Below, piece by piece: positions 2,126 through 27,806 of a stretch of 64,000 nucleotides of DNA. Origin of the DNA: Modestobacter sp. L9-4 (GTDB lineage: Bacteria > Actinomycetota > Actinomycetes > Mycobacteriales > Geodermatophilaceae); the NCBI RefSeq assembly GCF_019112525.1, contig NZ_CP077800.1:186001-250000 (forward strand), read 5' to 3'. Numbering within the stretch: position 1 is the first letter of the stretch; every line of letters begins with the position of its first letter. Position numbers and translations under genes: made by a program. The notes below the pieces were generated by a model. That model worked only from the letters and a program-made list of their open reading frames with translations. It was not told where the DNA came from and ran no database searches.

Positions 2126-4093
2126 GTGACCCCCACCGTGGGCGTGCTCGGCCCGGTGACCGCCTGGGCCGACGGCACCCCGCTGCCCCTCGGCGGTCCC
2201 CGCCACCGGGAGCTGCTGGCCCGCCTCGCGGTGGCGCACGGGCAGGTGGTGCCGGTCGGCAGCCTCGTCGACACCCTCTGGGAACGGCCCCCGGACGGCG
2301 CGGTCGCCGCCGTCCGCACCTTCGTGGCGGCGCTGCGCCGCGGTCTGGAGCCGGACCGCCGGCCGCGCACCCCGGCGCGGGTGCTGGTCACCGAGGGCCC
2401 GGGCTACGCGCTGCGGGCGGCGACCGACGCCGACGCGTTCACCTCCGCCGTCGAGCGGGCGGCCGGGCTCCCACCGGCCGCGGCGCTGGCGCTGCTCGAG
2501 GACGCCCTGGCCGGCTGGCGGGGTCCGGCCTACGCCGACGTCGGCGACCGGTCGTGGGCCCGCCCGGAACGCAGCCGGCTCACCGAGCTGCACAGCACCG
2601 CCGTCGAGCGGGCCGCCGCCGCCCGGCTGGCACTCGGCCGGGCCGCCGACGCCGTCCCCGGGCTGGACGCCCACGTCAGCGCGCACCCCTGGCGGGAGGA
2701 GGGCTGGCGGCTGCTGGCCCTGGCCCTCTACCGGTCGGGACGGCGACCCGACGCGCTGGCCGTGCTGCGCCGGGCCCGCAGCCGGCTGGTCGACGAGCTG
2801 GGCCTGGACCCGAGCCCGCAGCTGGCCGCCCTGGAACGCGACGTGCTGCACCAGGCGCCCGCGCTGGAGCTCGCCGACGACCCGCTGACCCGGGCCACCG
2901 CGTCCTGGGAGCGGGCGGCCGGCCCACGCGCGCGGCTGGAGGCCACCGTCGGCCTGCTGCGCAGCCTGTCCCGCACCGGCGCCGAGGGGCTGGCCGCGGC
3001 CCGGGAGCAGCGGCTGGCCACCATCGCCGCCGCCGAGGAGATCGGCGACCCGCTGCTGACCGCCCGCGTGGTCGGCGACCTCGACGTCCCCGGCGTGTGG
3101 ACCACCTCCGACGACCCGGAGCAGGCCGCCGCAGTGGTCGCCGCCGCCGAACGGGCGCTGCCGGTGACCGGCGCGGACGCCGTCCGGGTGCGGCTGCTGG
3201 CCACCGTCGCCGTCGAGTCGCGGGGGCTGCCCGGCCCGCGCGGTGCCGCGGCGGCCCGGGAGGCGGAGGCGCTGGCCCGGGAGCTGGGCGACCCGGCGCT
3301 GCTGGCCGTGGCGCTGGGCGCCCGCACCCTGCAGGTGTTCGACCGCTGCGGCCGCGCCGGCGACCGCGACGCCCTGGGTGCGGAGCTGGTGGAGCTGGCC
3401 GGGCGGCACGGTCTGACCGACTCCCTGGTGCTCGGCCACCTGGTGCGCATGCAGTCCCGCAGCGCCCTGGGCGACCTGGCCGGGGCCGGGCAGCACGCCG
3501 ACCTGCTCGACCGCCTGGCCGTCACGCACGACCGCCCGCTGGTCGGCGTCTTCACCGGTGGCTGGCGGGCGCTGCGCGCGGCGGTCGAGGACTCCCCCGA
3601 CGCCGAGGAGCAGCTCCGGACGGCGGCCCGGCTGCGGCAGGACTCCGGGATGCCCGGGGTCATCGACGGGCTGCTGACGCTGACGCTGGCCTGCCGGCAG
3701 GTGGCGCGCGGCGAGCCGGTGACCCCCGCCGGGCCGGCCGGACCGTACGCACCCTGGGTGGAGCCGCACCTCCGGCTGGCCGCCGGGGAGCCGGTGGAGG
3801 TGTCCGGGCTGCCGGACCCGCCGCCGGGTCTGCTGATGGAGGCGCTGTGGGTGCTCGCCGGCAGCGCCGCGGTGGCCGTCGGCGACACAGAGCTGCTGGC
3901 GTGGGCTCGGGCGGCGTTGACCCCCGCGGCCGGTCAGCTCGCCGGCGCGGGCAGCGGGATGCTCTCCGCCGGCCCGGTCAGCGACCACCTCACCCGGTGG
4001 GACCGCCTCCTCGGCGGTGTCGGCCGAGCCCGGCCGGACCGTGGACCGGGACGGTCCCGGCCCGCCGGGACCTCCTCGACCGGGCCAGCCTGA
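2126..4093 (+). CDS. AfsR/SARP-type regulator with BTAD domain, no ATPase
   Basis: A 655-aa protein from a GTG start. Residues 1-90 are an OmpR-like winged helix (VGVLGPVTAWADG, HGQVVPVGSLVDTLW), followed by a bacterial transcriptional activation domain to about residue 250 (LELLHS/SGRRPDALAVLRRARSRL type helices, ending LDPSPQLAALERDVL). The remaining 400 residues are Ala/Leu-rich helices resembling TPR-like repeats. Unlike the regulator at 14875, there is no P-loop or NB-ARC segment. SARP proteins activate nearby promoters by binding direct repeats. The adjacent divergent hydrolase is the obvious candidate target (inference). Confidence 0.82.
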   Translation: MTPTVGVLGPVTAWADGTPLPLGGPRHRELLARLAVAHGQVVPVGSLVDTLWERPPDGAVAAVRTFVAALRRGLEPDRRPRTPARVLVTEGPGYALRAATDADAFTSAVERAAGLPPAAALALLEDALAGWRGPAYADVGDRSWARPERSRLTELHSTAVERAAAARLALGRAADAVPGLDAHVSAHPWREEGWRLLALALYRSGRRPDALAVLRRARSRLVDELGLDPSPQLAALERDVLHQAPALELADDPLTRATASWERAAGPRARLEATVGLLRSLSRTGAEGLAAAREQRLATIAAAEEIGDPLLTARVVGDLDVPGVWTTSDDPEQAAAVVAAAERALPVTGADAVRVRLLATVAVESRGLPGPRGAAAAREAEALARELGDPALLAVALGARTLQVFDRCGRAGDRDALGAELVELAGRHGLTDSLVLGHLVRMQSRSALGDLAGAGQHADLLDRLAVTHDRPLVGVFTGGWRALRAAVEDSPDAEEQLRTAARLRQDSGMPGVIDGLLTLTLACRQVARGEPVTPAGPAGPYAPWVEPHLRLAAGEPVEVSGLPDPPPGLLMEALWVLAGSAAVAVGDTELLAWARAALTPAAGQLAGAGSGMLSAGPVSDHLTRWDRLLGGVGRARPDRGPGRSRPAGTSSTGPA

Positions 4094-18763: not shown

Positions 18764-19825
18764 TCAGAGGCCCAGCCGGGCGGACGCCGGGGCCGCCCAG
18801 CGGCTGCTGGCGTCGTAGCCGCGCAGGGTGGTGACCGAGGCCCACCGGCCGGTGCGGGCCAGCTCGCGCTCGCTGACCCCGGCCTTGTAGCCCTCGGTGG
18901 CGAAGGACCGGCGGAGGCTGTGCGGGCTGAGCCCCTCCAGCGGGACGCCGGCCCGCTCGGCCGCCCGCAACAGCACCAGCCGCACCGACGACCGCGCCAT
19001 CCGGGTTCGGCCGATCCGCGGTGCCGCGCCGCGCCCGACACTGCGGAACAGCGGGCCGGACTCCAGCCCGGCCGCCTCGACCCAGGCCTGCAGCGCGCGC
19101 ACCGGGCAGGTCTGCACCCGCACCCCGGGCGCGAGGGCCAGCACCTCCCCGGCGCCCTCCTGGTCGGTCTTGGAGAACCGCACGGTGACGTCGAGGCCGC
19201 CGTGCCCGGCCGGGGCCAGGTCGGTGACGTCCAGGCCGCAGGCGTCCGAGGCCCGCAGGCCGAGGGCGAAGGAGGTGAGCACCAGCGCCCGGTCGCGCAG
19301 CCCGGCGGGCCCCTCGGGCAGGTCCTCGACGAGCGCGCGGATGGTCTGGGTGTCCAGTGCACGGGCCTTCTTCGGACGCCGTCCGCTGCGGGCCGCCGCC
19401 CGGCGGATGCCGCGCAGCACCTCGCGGGTGCCGGGGTGCTCCGACGGGCTGGGGTGCCCGGCCTCGCGGTGGGCGTGCCCGATCCCGGACAGCCGCCGGG
19501 CGATGGTGCGCGGGCTGGCGCCGGCGTCGCCGAGCGCAGCGAGGTAGGCCGCCACCGCGGCGTCCGCGGCCGGCAGCGGGGTGAAGCCGCGCTGAGCGGC
19601 CCAGTCCGACCACGCCCGGAAGTCCGCCTCGTACGCCCGCCGCGTCGACTCCGCCTTCGCCGCGTCCAGGTAGCGGCCCACGGACTCGACGTCGCCGGGC
19701 AGCACCAGTCCCCCGTCGGCGGGGTGCGCGTCCGGCTGCGTCCCGGTGCGCGTCTCCGAGCGACGCCGGACCACCTCATGGGTGGTCGCAAGTGCATCTG
19801 TCGTCACTGCGGATGAACGCTCCAT
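18764..19825 (-). CDS. tyrosine recombinase / site-specific integrase
   Basis: A 353-aa tyrosine recombinase. Residues 50-140 look like a SAM-like core-binding domain (AKAESTRRAYEADFRAWSDWA). The catalytic domain contains GLRASDAC (first Arg), RFSKTDQ (Lys), LSPHSLRRSFAT (His and second Arg), TGRWASVTTLRGY with Trp at the His/Trp position, and Tyr as nucleophile. All catalytic residues appear present. No phage genes, tRNA or att repeat flank it. ATG 19825 lies within an inverted repeat and 8 bases after a CATAAT -10 (leaderless reading); GTG 19807 is an alternative. It is divergent from the coiled-coil gene. Confidence 0.9.
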   Translation of the reverse strand: MERSSAVTTDALATTHEVVRRRSETRTGTQPDAHPADGGLVLPGDVESVGRYLDAAKAESTRRAYEADFRAWSDWAAQRGFTPLPAADAAVAAYLAALGDAGASPRTIARRLSGIGHAHREAGHPSPSEHPGTREVLRGIRRAAARSGRRPKKARALDTQTIRALVEDLPEGPAGLRDRALVLTSFALGLRASDACGLDVTDLAPAGHGGLDVTVRFSKTDQEGAGEVLALAPGVRVQTCPVRALQAWVEAAGLESGPLFRSVGRGAAPRIGRTRMARSSVRLVLLRAAERAGVPLEGLSPHSLRRSFATEGYKAGVSERELARTGRWASVTTLRGYDASSRWAAPASARLGL

Positions 19826-19842
19826 AACAGTTGATTATGGAG
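19820..19842. promoter_or_regulatory. inverted repeat over recombinase promoter and start
   Basis: Perfect arms CTCCATAA and TTATGGAG separated by CAGTTGA. On the minus strand the right arm supplies CATAAT as -10 (19839-19834) and the left arm contains the ATG at 19825. A protein bound here would block transcription and translation start. The local A/T content is well above the surroundings. Confidence 0.5.
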
Positions 19843-19889
19843 TGCTGTCTGCCGTTGAGCCAGCCATCGACGCATGACGGCCGTCCGTC

Positions 19890-19924
19890 CGTTCGTCTAA
19901 TGAGCGTGCATTGACGGACGAACG
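19890..19924. promoter_or_regulatory. inverted repeat near coiled-coil gene promoter
   Basis: Arms CGTTCGTC (19890-19897) and GACGAACG (19917-19924) flank a possible -10 TCTAAT (19896-19901). The pair is centred just before the coiled-coil gene start and is a candidate operator. Confidence 0.4.
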
Positions 19925-19940
19925 AGCGCACGATGGCCGC

Positions 19941-21329
19941 ATGACCGCCCCGGAGACCACCTGCGCCTATCCCGGCTGCGACCGGCCGGTGGCTCCTCCC
20001 CCGGCGACAGGCGGGCGGTCGTCCTACTGCGCACTCCCCGGTCACAACCGCACGACCGCCTTCGCCGCCCGCCGCAGCCAGGCGGCCGACCGGGCACCGG
20101 CCTCCCCTGGGACCCCTCCCCCGGCACCGTCGCCCCGCACCGGCGAGACGCTCCTCGAGGTGGCCGACCGGCTGCGCTCGACGCTGACGGCCATCACCGA
20201 GCAGGTCGACCGGGCGCAGGACGCGCTGACCCGGGCCGCGGACGCCGAGCTGCTGGAGGCCGAGCGGGCGGCGGTGCGCACCGACGCCCGGCGCGAGATC
20301 GCCGAGGCCGACCAGCGCGCCGCCCTGGCCGACCGGGTGCGCGCGGTCGCGGAGAAGGCGACGCGGGAGGCCCTCGAGGCCGCGGCACGGGCCGACGCCG
20401 ACGCGTCCGCCGCCCGGACCGCGACCGCCGCCGCCGAGGACCGGGCCGCCGCGGCCCTGGCGGCCACCGTCACCGCGGAGCGGGCAGCACAACAGGCACG
20501 GACCGAGGCCGAGGCGGCCACGGTGGCGGCCGCCGGCGCCGAGCAGGCACGCCAGGACGCCGACGGGCAGCGAGAGGCCGCCGAACGTGAGACCGGCACC
20601 GCCCGCGCCGAGGCCGCCCGCGCGGAGGAGGCCCGTGCCCGCGCACTCGCCGACGCCGCAGCGGCCGAGGACCGGGCGTCCGCCGCCGAGGCCGCCCGTG
20701 ACCAGGCGCTGGCCGCCGAGCAGGCCGCCCGCGCGGAGACGGCCGCCGCGCAGGCGGAGGCGGATCGCTCCCGGGCCGATGCCGCCCGGGCCGCCGGCCG
20801 GGCCGAGCTGGCCGAGACGACCGCCCGGCTGGAGACCGCCGCCGCCGAGAGCCGGGCACAGGCGGCCGACGCCCGGGCCGAGGCCGCGACCGACCGCGCG
20901 AGCACCCAGGAGGCACGCGCCGAACGAGCCGAGCGCAGCGCGGAGGACGCCCGCCACGACCGCCTGCAGGCCGAGGAGGCCCGCGACCGCGCCCGCGCCG
21001 AGGCGGAGGCCGCCCGCGCCGAGGCGGAGGCCGCCCGCGTCGAGCTCGCTGCCGCCCGAGCCGAGCTGGCAACCGCCCGGCCCGAGCCCGTAGGGACCCC
21101 GGCCGAGCTCGCGGCCACCCGGGCTGAGCCGCTAGCCGGCCGGATCGAGCCGGCGGGGACGCAGGGCGAGCCGGCGGGGACGCAGGCCGAGCCGGCAGCC
21201 GGCCGGATCGAGCCGGCAGCTGTCCGGACCGACCAGGCCACAGCGACCCGGTCACCCGACGCACCAGGCGGCGGAGCAGGTCAGCCGGGGTCGCCCGAGG
21301 GCTCCGGCGAGGACACCCCGGTCACTTGA
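19941..21329 (+). CDS. zinc-knuckle, long Ala-rich coiled-coil protein (KfrA-like architecture)
   Basis: About 462 aa from ATG 19941; TTG 19911 would add 10 residues and would be leaderless. Residues 8-35 hold a putative zinc knuckle C8-x4-C13-x16-C30-x4-H35 (YCALPGHN). After a Pro-rich linker, residues 65-390 form an almost uninterrupted Ala/Glu/Arg coiled coil. The tail has repeats of the GRIEPA and GTQxEPA type. The layout of a small DNA-binding-size head plus long Ala-rich coil recalls plasmid KfrA proteins, but there is no visible helix-turn-helix. Being divergent from the recombinase suggests a linked function: regulator, DNA organiser or recombination accessory factor (inference). Confidence 0.6.
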   Translation: MTAPETTCAYPGCDRPVAPPPATGGRSSYCALPGHNRTTAFAARRSQAADRAPASPGTPPPAPSPRTGETLLEVADRLRSTLTAITEQVDRAQDALTRAADAELLEAERAAVRTDARREIAEADQRAALADRVRAVAEKATREALEAAARADADASAARTATAAAEDRAAAALAATVTAERAAQQARTEAEAATVAAAGAEQARQDADGQREAAERETGTARAEAARAEEARARALADAAAAEDRASAAEAARDQALAAEQAARAETAAAQAEADRSRADAARAAGRAELAETTARLETAAAESRAQAADARAEAATDRASTQEARAERAERSAEDARHDRLQAEEARDRARAEAEAARAEAEAARVELAAARAELATARPEPVGTPAELAATRAEPLAGRIEPAGTQGEPAGTQAEPAAGRIEPAAVRTDQATATRSPDAPGGGAGQPGSPEGSGEDTPVT

Positions 21330-26704: not shown

Positions 26705-27631
26705 TCAGCGGTAGTTGACGTGCACGTGGTCGACGTGGTTCTCCGTGACCCCGCCGCGGTCCTCCATCTGCTTCCACGACCCGCCGGGCGAGCTGAGCAT
26801 CCGCTGCTCCCAGATGACGTAGGCGACGCCGAGCTCGGTCCAGTGCTCGACGTGGTAGGCCACGATCGCGTCGCCCAGGGCGGCGTCGGTGAGCACCATG
26901 TAGTCCAGGGCCAGGCCCGAGGGGTGGCCGCCGGGGTCGGTGGCGCTGGCCCGGGTGCCGCCCAGGGTGATGCCGCCGGCGCCCGGCACCGCCGACACCA
27001 CCTGGTCGGCGGCGGCCTGCACCTGCGGCTCCACGTCGCCCGTGCGGTTGGTGATCCGGGCGACCGCGGAGGTGGCCGCGCTGGAGGCCACTCCCGCCGA
27101 CGACCGGCGGGCCGGCGCCTCAGCGGGTGCCGGCCCGACCTCCGCCGCTGCTTCTGCGGCGGCGGCCGCCGTGGCCTCCGCCGCCCGCGCGGCCTCGGCG
27201 GCGGCCGCGGCCTCCGCCTCGGCAGCTGCCGTGGCGGAAGCCTCCGCCGCAGCGGCGGCCTCGGCCTCGGCGGCGACCCGGGCGGTGGTCTCGGACTCGA
27301 CCCGCCGGCGCTCGAGCTCGGCGGCGTCCGCGGCGGCCTGGACCTGCTGGGCGGCGGTCTGCGCGGCCTCGCGGCTGCTGCGGCTGGCCGCCAGCTGCTC
27401 CAGCGGCGCCAGGTCGCGGGCCGGCCCGGACGGCGCGGGCACCCCGGCCAGGCCGAGCTGCTCGGCGACGCTGACCGGCCCGGCCTCCGGCAGTGCCGTC
27501 GCCGTCGGGCCGGCGACCTGGGCGAGGCCCGTGCCGGCCAGGACGGCGAGGGCGACCGCACCGGCCACGGCGGAGCCGAGCAGTGCCCCGGCGGGCGGAC
27601 GACGGTGCGCGCGCGTGCTGCGGGGGCGCAT
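26705..27631 (-). CDS. secreted coiled-coil protein with M15-like peptidase domain
   Basis: A 308-aa protein from ATG 27631. A basic N-terminus and one hydrophobic helix (LLGSAVAGAVALAVLAGTGLAQVAG) indicate export or membrane anchoring. Residues about 70-185 are an Ala/Glu-rich coiled coil. The C-terminal 100 residues resemble the ARB_07466/peptidase M15 fold, with metal-ligand pattern HPSGLALDYMV (H-x2-G-x-A-x-D) and HVDHVHVNY (HxH). M15 enzymes cleave D-amino-acid peptide bonds in peptidoglycan, so a cell-wall role is likely. Upstream in-frame ATG 27754 was not chosen because the extension is low-complexity. Confidence 0.75.
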   Translation of the reverse strand: MRPRSTRAHRRPPAGALLGSAVAGAVALAVLAGTGLAQVAGPTATALPEAGPVSVAEQLGLAGVPAPSGPARDLAPLEQLAASRSSREAAQTAAQQVQAAADAAELERRRVESETTARVAAEAEAAAAAEASATAAAEAEAAAAAEAARAAEATAAAAAEAAAEVGPAPAEAPARRSSAGVASSAATSAVARITNRTGDVEPQVQAAADQVVSAVPGAGGITLGGTRASATDPGGHPSGLALDYMVLTDAALGDAIVAYHVEHWTELGVAYVIWEQRMLSSPGGSWKQMEDRGGVTENHVDHVHVNYR

Positions 27632-27806
27632 GGGCGGTGGGACTCCCAGGGTACGGGCGCAGCGACGGGGACCCGGCGGGGTGCGCTGCGGCAGGTGTGC
27701 GGACTCCCCGGCGCCGGACGTGCCGACCCGCCGGACTCCGGCCACGGTAGCCACCGTGACCGTTCCGTGACAACGCCGGACGGCGAGTCGCCCCGCCGTC
27801 CGGCCC

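Follow-up and report, generated by a model that had tools for sequence, protein, structure and literature searches.

We analyzed a stretch of 64,000 nucleotides from Modestobacter sp. L9-4 (NCBI RefSeq assembly GCF_019112525.1, contig NZ_CP077800.1, positions 186,001 to 250,000 of the forward strand), to which we refer as the window. It contains a tyrosine recombinase gene divergent from a gene for a coiled-coil protein, and two different perfect inverted repeats lie in the region between them, at 19820-19842 (8+7+8 bases) and at 19890-19897/19917-19924 (with a 19-base loop). An earlier reading of the same DNA, made from the letters alone (the sequence-only reading), had described this arrangement with an intact recombinase, and the 353-amino-acid open reading frame (ORF), its Pfam domains and its invariant residues bear this out, as do the two repeats. 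That reading had missed that the first repeat is a dif-like core containing the recombinase start codon, that the other resembles an accessory site, that the locus is close to the terminus and that its anatomy is that of the TnpS/TnpT/rst system. With roughly even confidence, we consider the locus a chromosomal single-recombinase module for site-specific resolution, of TnpS/TnpT/rst anatomy and placed near the terminus.

The recombinase gene occupies positions 18764 to 19825 of the minus strand (ORF 19825..18764) and encodes a core-binding and a catalytic domain. In a Pfam scan, the protein matched Phage_integrase and a SAM-like core-binding domain and nothing else, and no arm-binding domain was found. 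This two-domain makeup puts it among the "simple" recombinases in the scheme given in the accessible part of PMC8138268. Among solved structures in the Protein Data Bank (PDB), Cre was the closest match and XerD the second. Residues R191, K219, H302, R305, W328 and Y337, which we take to be the catalytic set of tyrosine recombinases, were invariant in the 13 sequences aligned. Both genes of the pair are intact, and the ratio of nonsynonymous to synonymous substitutions (dN/dS) between the recombinase of the window and those of eight relatives from the genus was 0.08 to 0.17, indicating purifying selection. Geodermatophilus contains two recombinase types, 87 to 90% and 60 to 63% identical to that of the window, each of which formed a supported clade (SH-aLRT 99) in a quick tree of 120 rows from which nine near-duplicates had been removed beforehand. 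The comparison with the distant type II gene of genome G026, in which dS is probably saturated, gave a dN/dS of 0.55. The closest relatives outside the Geodermatophilaceae were found on two IMG/VR contigs (49% identity), and 1217 plasmid records matched at E <= 1e-10, with 34 to 43% identity among the 40 matches listed.

The core site (19820..19842) is a perfect inverted repeat, CTCCATAA-N7-TTATGGAG, with arms at 19820-19827 and 19835-19842 and the 7-bp spacer CAGTTGA at 19828-19834. We compared 18 modules, comprising 12 from 11 genomes of the genus (G012 has two) and six Geodermatophilus loci; loci L086, L089, L091 and L092 were left out, as they come from the same genomes as G007, G012, G011 and G022. 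Both arms were identical in all 18 modules, the spacer occurred in eight variants, and the sequence flanking the core was otherwise unlike. The two modules of G012 (70% complete; L058 and L059) differ slightly and have a core spacer each, possibly reflecting two strains in the bin. In all 18 modules the recombinase start codon (19823..19825, minus strand), an ATG in frame with the conserved protein, lies inside the core, and the other arm forms CATAAT (19834..19839, minus strand), a possible -10 box, so that the transcript would be leaderless. A consensus scan found no full sigma-70 promoter at the module. Allowing up to 3 mismatches, the core pattern occurred once in the 4.22-Mb genome, and a reversed control pattern also gave one match. 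Within the genus, the core was present (up to 2 mismatches) in 11 of 23 genomes, exactly those with a close recombinase, and once per module. Matches in 12 contigs of a virus collection look like chance, since these contigs have 27 to 47% GC, unrelated spacers and no recombinase match in the stretch available.

The second repeat is a perfect 8-base pair (CGTTCGT...ACGAACG) around a 19-base loop, with the left arm CGTTCGTC at 19890..19897 and the right arm GACGAACG at 19917..19924, inside a wider imperfect pair (19882-19897/19917-19932). Between the core and the coiled-coil gene, TTCGT/ACGAA units were strongly enriched, with 55 in the 18 modules versus 1.9 expected from mononucleotide shuffles; the enrichment had p <= 0.005 in 17 modules and 0.08 in that of G. 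sabuli I12A. The 470 kb around the module contained a single paired repeat and 360 kb of other chromosome slices contained none, for which reason we rejected a MatP-like role of the coiled-coil protein. Half-sites were commoner, with 37 copies of CGTTCGTC and 7 of GACGAACGA in the 470 kb and one of GACGAACGA in the 360 kb, so scattered binding of the protein at single half-sites is possible. The second repeat looks like an accessory site that belongs to the coiled-coil gene.

The coiled-coil gene, for whose product we propose the role of an accessory factor, extends from 19941 to 21329 on the plus strand. The ATG at 19941 leaves the 115-base intergenic gap of the sequence-only reading, and the mechanically assigned start is a TTG at 19911. 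The sequence CACGAT (19929..19934, plus strand), six bases ahead of the ATG, may be its -10 box. The claimed head, C8-x4-C13-x16-C30-x4-H35 (residues 8-35, positions 19962..20045, plus strand), proved conserved, with three invariant cysteines and the histidine in at least 90% of 16 aligned sequences, and it probably binds metal. For the first 100 residues, AlphaFold2 gave a mean predicted local distance difference test score (pLDDT) of 82.6 and helices at 37-51 and 71-99; a fold search with the head returned a single match (E 9.5) and nothing useful. The label "KfrA-like" has no support from homology, as the protein matched nothing in Pfam or PHROGs up to an E value of 1 and the Pfam scan found no KfrA_N domain. 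Very similar zinc-head coiled-coil proteins are present in G033 and G004 (L047, L048, L068 and L069) without a close recombinase; at L069, a likely integrase, recognized by motif only, is located about 1.5 kb from the zinc-head gene. In G003 (L046), which also has no close recombinase, a different palindrome, perfect and with 16-bp arms and a 4-bp centre, precedes the zinc-head match by 135 bases.

We then considered the distribution of both genes in 397 genomes of the order, using cut-offs of E <= 1e-25 for the recombinase and E <= 1e-3 for the head. The best 5 recombinase and 12 head candidates per genome were scored, so that misses are possible, and the lists of genomes bearing either gene were sorted by hand. 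Here we equate group g1 with Modestobacter and g5 with Geodermatophilus, and f7, f8, f13 and f15 denote families of the same order. The recombinase was found in 73 and the head in 88 of the genomes. In 27 genomes (7 from g1, 15 from g5, 1 from f7 and 4 from f8) the two genes were divergent within about 0.8 kb, and in another 14 they were on one contig, 6.5 to 81 kb apart and pointing outward in every case. They were 164 kb apart on the same strand in G324 and far apart or on separate contigs in G046, G059, G068, G076 and G268, and 26 genomes had the recombinase alone and 41 the head alone. The pair is thus not always adjacent, which counts against the sequence-only reading, nor is the module universal in the genus, where 11 of 23 genomes have it. 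Gene content between the spread genes, compared in 7 cases, was mostly unshared except among close relatives; one gene in four of these gaps resembles, by eye, an FAD monooxygenase. In the gap of G358, eight ORFs were scanned, of which five were ordinary metabolic or regulatory genes and three had no match.

In the genomes with spread genes, a core of the type TGACCTCCGATAA-TGTTCAC-TTATCGGAGGTCA was found by pattern in 14/14 and read in the sequence of 7/14. It lay by the coiled-coil gene, with none by the recombinase, in 13 of the 14 (the exception being G355), and we therefore rejected the idea that the intervening 6.5 to 81 kb are cargo integrated at the core. In this pattern search, which covered 28 genomes that we chose, CCGATAA-N7-TTATCGG with at most 1 mismatch was present in 19, all from families f8 and f15, and each of the 19 had exactly one such core whose spacer fits [TCG]GTT[CT][AC]C. 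Its distance from the coiled-coil head match was about 80 to 180 bases in 18 of them and 8.4 kb in G355. The f8/f15 palindromes are of the same kind, with a 7-bp spacer, and have 15-bp arms in G054. Upstream of the coiled-coil gene, no palindrome above shuffles was found in G046, G030 (two genes), G057, G033 and G004.

A palindrome scan of 89 relatives gave no significant result for many of them. For type II in Geodermatophilus, the expected site was not obtained at p <= 0.05 in any of eight loci; an imperfect CTTCCGAGAA-N7-TTCTGCGAAG-like element was seen by eye and with a loose pattern in seven of these, being absent from L098. A GATAA-N7-TTATC palindrome stood upstream of distant recombinase relatives in 13 of the 89 loci (L101, L104, L106, L115, L135, L148, L150, L152, L155, L158, L161, L162 and L181), whose hosts include Azospirillum, Bacillota, Myxococcales, Pelosinus and Pelagibacteraceae, and a one-sided variant was seen in Micromonospora L145 and a few more. 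The Pelagibacteraceae loci L155, L158, L161 and L162 share one palindrome with 14-bp arms, about 75 to 90 bases before the recombinase match, with one base differing in L162. It may be that a wide family of recombinases moves together with a core site of its own.

The genome has the module in addition to XerCD/dif. Three PF00589 proteins were found in the genome, namely, the module recombinase, an XerD-like protein that exceeds the cut-off of the XerD model and an XerC-like protein below that of the XerC model. A candidate dif at chromosome positions 114973-115000 has 4/28 mismatches to the actinobacterial dif given in PMC3025954, which quotes the dif of F. alni as GATAA-N6-TTATG; the inner ends ATAA/TTATG of the core are common to that site. 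In Micromonospora sicca (L141, a 3.6-kb contig), a related recombinase at 773-1729 is accompanied by a sequence at ~3085-3112 with 6/28 mismatches to the F. alni dif. The core of the window is at chromosome position 205820, 90.8 kb or 2.1% of the chromosome away from dif; in G008, dif (2607295) and core (2393757) are 213.5 kb or 3.8% apart. The origin could not be located from plain GC skew, which was too weak, and we used a skew of hexamers with G008 (dnaA at base 65) as the training genome; it is noisy, and its behavior on G008 itself follows by construction. In the genome of the window it changed sign at 0.50-0.55 (origin side) and near 0.05 (terminus side), and its cumulative value over 470 kb peaked at 119964. 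We examined 13 record starts, of which five had dnaA by sequence motif and, apart from the genome of the window, seven were unplaced. In these five relatives the module or one of its genes was found at 0.43 to 0.52 of the chromosome, as illustrated by the core in G325 (0.497), G355 (0.490) and G008 (0.429), the coiled-coil gene in G353 (0.482) and, as a mixed case, the recombinase in G046. The genome of the window and the five dnaA-start genomes thus place it in the terminus region, near dif and not at dif.

The surroundings of the module were inspected for traits of mobile elements. Twelve flanking ORFs (10.1 to 30.3 kb of the window) were scanned against Pfam and PHROGs and no element genes were recognised; the families include a sugar transporter, an amino-acid permease, a BTAD regulator, a saccharopine-dehydrogenase-like protein, a sigma factor, an acyl-CoA dehydrogenase, TauE and an SNF2 helicase. 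PHROGs matches were limited to the sigma factor, the TauE protein (unknown family), the SNF2 helicase and an endolysin-like domain (ORF 26705-27754), all of which we read as chromosomal. In agreement with the sequence-only reading, no tRNA gene was found in the window, nor in 31 of 34 stretches scanned; the three tRNA calls were at L094 (doubtful, overlapping the recombinase gene), at L097 (~6.7 kb from the recombinase start) and in the G137 gap. The traits of a phage or integrative conjugative element integrase (attL/attR, a tRNA target, an arm-binding domain, phage neighbours) were not found in the tRNA scan of the window, the domain scan of the recombinase, the core scan of the genome or the 12 flanking ORFs, and a reading of the core as an att site was rejected, as no second core appeared in the genome or the relatives scanned. 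A Tn3 transposon was likewise rejected, since PF01526 was not found in the genome by a search that was positive in 2 of 14 control genomes. On the other hand, the module is patchy in the genus and its neighbourhoods differ, and the IMG/VR contig that was read carries a large serine recombinase about 1 kb from the recombinase relative and a CACATAA-N7-TTATGTG palindrome at the start (p 0.12 and 0.05 in the two contigs).

The closest known arrangement is that of TnpS/TnpT/rst in Tn4651-type Tn3 transposons (pWW0), where a tyrosine recombinase is also divergent from a coiled-coil helper, a nature of TnpT that follows from Pfam matches, and where a core inverted repeat for the recombinase and an accessory one for the helper also lie between the genes. 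The available sections of PMC4619425 give rst a 23-bp core for TnpS and an accessory repeat for TnpT and, together with those of PMC7157771, describe this anatomy and the possibility of passenger DNA between tnpS and tnpT, another feature shared with the module. However, TnpS is only 29% identical to the module recombinase, TnpT has a KfrA_N head instead of the C-x4-C-x16-C-x4-H head, and the module is chromosomal, near the terminus and without a Tn3 transposase. As for grouping with TnpS, the recombinase of the window fell in a group of 45 rows (SH-aLRT 88, branch 2.88) in the quick tree only. The module would thus work like TnpS/TnpT/rst and, judging from the missing Tn3 transposase and TnpT-type head, is no member of that system. 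In the dif systems with a single recombinase, the recombinase acts alone, as we propose for the module, and the site is near the recombinase gene (XerS/difSL and XerH/difH; accessible part of PMC5357621) or in the terminus region (Legionella XerL/dif; accessible part of PMC9765430). The module likewise has a single-copy dif-like site beside its recombinase, or beside the coiled-coil gene in f8 and f15. In contrast, XerS, XerH and XerL stand in for XerCD, whereas the module coexists with a classical dif and with XerC- and XerD-like proteins and has a dedicated coiled-coil partner in addition. Actinobacterial XerCD/dif resembles the core in being palindromic with inner ends ATAA/TTATG, but the site of the module is another one (8+7+8) and its recombinase is the third of the genome, with dif 91 kb away. 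Cre/loxP of phage P1, whose recombinase was the best PDB match, also pairs a simple recombinase with a palindromic core. Cre acts alone at that core, and loxP is not known to come with an accessory protein and repeat dedicated to it. We found no module of the present kind in listings of the open-licence literature of PMC.

Considering the anatomy, the drift of the spacer between fixed arms, the single copy of the core and the second repeat, we favor a recombination in which the partners are identical cores, either on sister molecules or on molecules that are joined; with a sister copy as the partner, and not a fixed outside site, constant arms and a drifting spacer would be expected. Two recombinase monomers would bind the arms of the core, and two copies of it, on sister chromosomes or the halves of a dimer, would be brought together in a synapse, with the exchange taking place inside the 7-bp spacer. 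The coiled-coil protein would use its metal-binding head to bind the second repeat, and would help or filter synapsis. Each protein may repress its own promoter, because the start codon of the recombinase lies in the core and the promoter of the coiled-coil gene under the second repeat. The likely service would be the conversion of joined chromosome copies into monomers, beside XerCD/dif.

Several observations weigh against this proposal. The genome has a classical dif as well as XerC- and XerD-like proteins, so there is no gap to fill, and the core is 91 to 214 kb away from dif in the two genomes compared. The five dnaA-start genomes come from three families and are not five independent cases; in G046 the recombinase is at 0.521 but the coiled-coil gene at 0.728, and no core was identified there; no palindrome of score >=8 was found at the recombinase. 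Acquired DNA, too, tends to accumulate at the terminus. Twelve of the 23 genomes of the genus have no core, and the compact pair of G040 showed no palindrome of score >=7, neither core nor accessory repeat being seen. In the search of the 28 genomes, eight extra matches had unrelated spacers, two of these matches being exact, and the reversed control matched six times. Some modules have only a weak second repeat or none, its right arm being altered and without ACGAA in 4/18, and G137, G337 and G307 have no full pair. As for the sequence-only reading of a self-contained chromosomal module that is not a dead phage integrase, it is weakened by the 41 of the 88 genomes with the head that have no close recombinase. 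That reading is otherwise supported by the intact and selected gene, the lack of a tRNA or second core, the ordinary neighbours and the recurrence of the divergent partner in other families.

Among the other explanations, a resolution module left behind by a plasmid, an integrative conjugative element or a transposon, which may still act on the core but would have served the lost element alone and be kept as a passenger or selfish locus, is possible but improbable. The IMG/VR relatives with their neighbouring serine recombinase and palindrome, the many relatives on plasmids and the patchy occurrence in differing neighbourhoods speak for such an origin, against which stand the purifying selection, the core and start codon kept in 18/18 modules, the absence of element genes from the ORFs scanned and the placement near the terminus. 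That the protein is an integrase and the core the attachment site of a mobile element, with the compact locus as its empty or parental form, appears unlikely: the family of the recombinase and the intervening 6.5 to 81 kb in 14 genomes, mostly unshared in the 7 compared, would fit, but no two cores were found around this DNA, the single core stays by the coiled-coil gene in 13/14, the arm-binding domain and, in nearly all stretches, a tRNA are missing, five of the eight ORFs scanned in the G358 gap are ordinary genes and the spacer drifts between species.

The palindromes might also be operators or start signals only, their arms kept by the start codon, the CATAAT box and a repressor, with the recombinase acting elsewhere or not at all. 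The position of start codon and box inside every core, and of both repeats where promoters must be, agrees with this, but in the spread cases the f8/f15 palindromes are by the coiled-coil gene and far from the recombinase, and in other phyla, too, ATAA-N7-TTAT palindromes are found ahead of distant relatives; we regard this explanation as quite improbable. Orphan tyrosine recombinases can invert promoters, but a DNA invertase for phase variation is very hard to sustain, since no second core was found in the genome with up to 3 mismatches.

Beyond the resolution module itself, we put forward tentatively, and as a possibility only, that several actinobacterial families have, in addition to XerCD/dif, a second system dedicated to recombination at the terminus. 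It would consist of a self-repressing recombinase, its own dif-like core and a coiled-coil synapsis factor that senses metal or bridges DNA, tamed from a plasmid or transposon resolvase for chromosome segregation. The module could also be the source of an orthogonal recombinase, with a site of 23 bp and an accessory site that is defined. Should the module act on sister chromosomes, it would be a second terminus recombination system in bacteria with a normal XerCD/dif, and the path from a mobile resolvase of the TnpS/TnpT kind to a chromosomal dif system would be traceable in living relatives.

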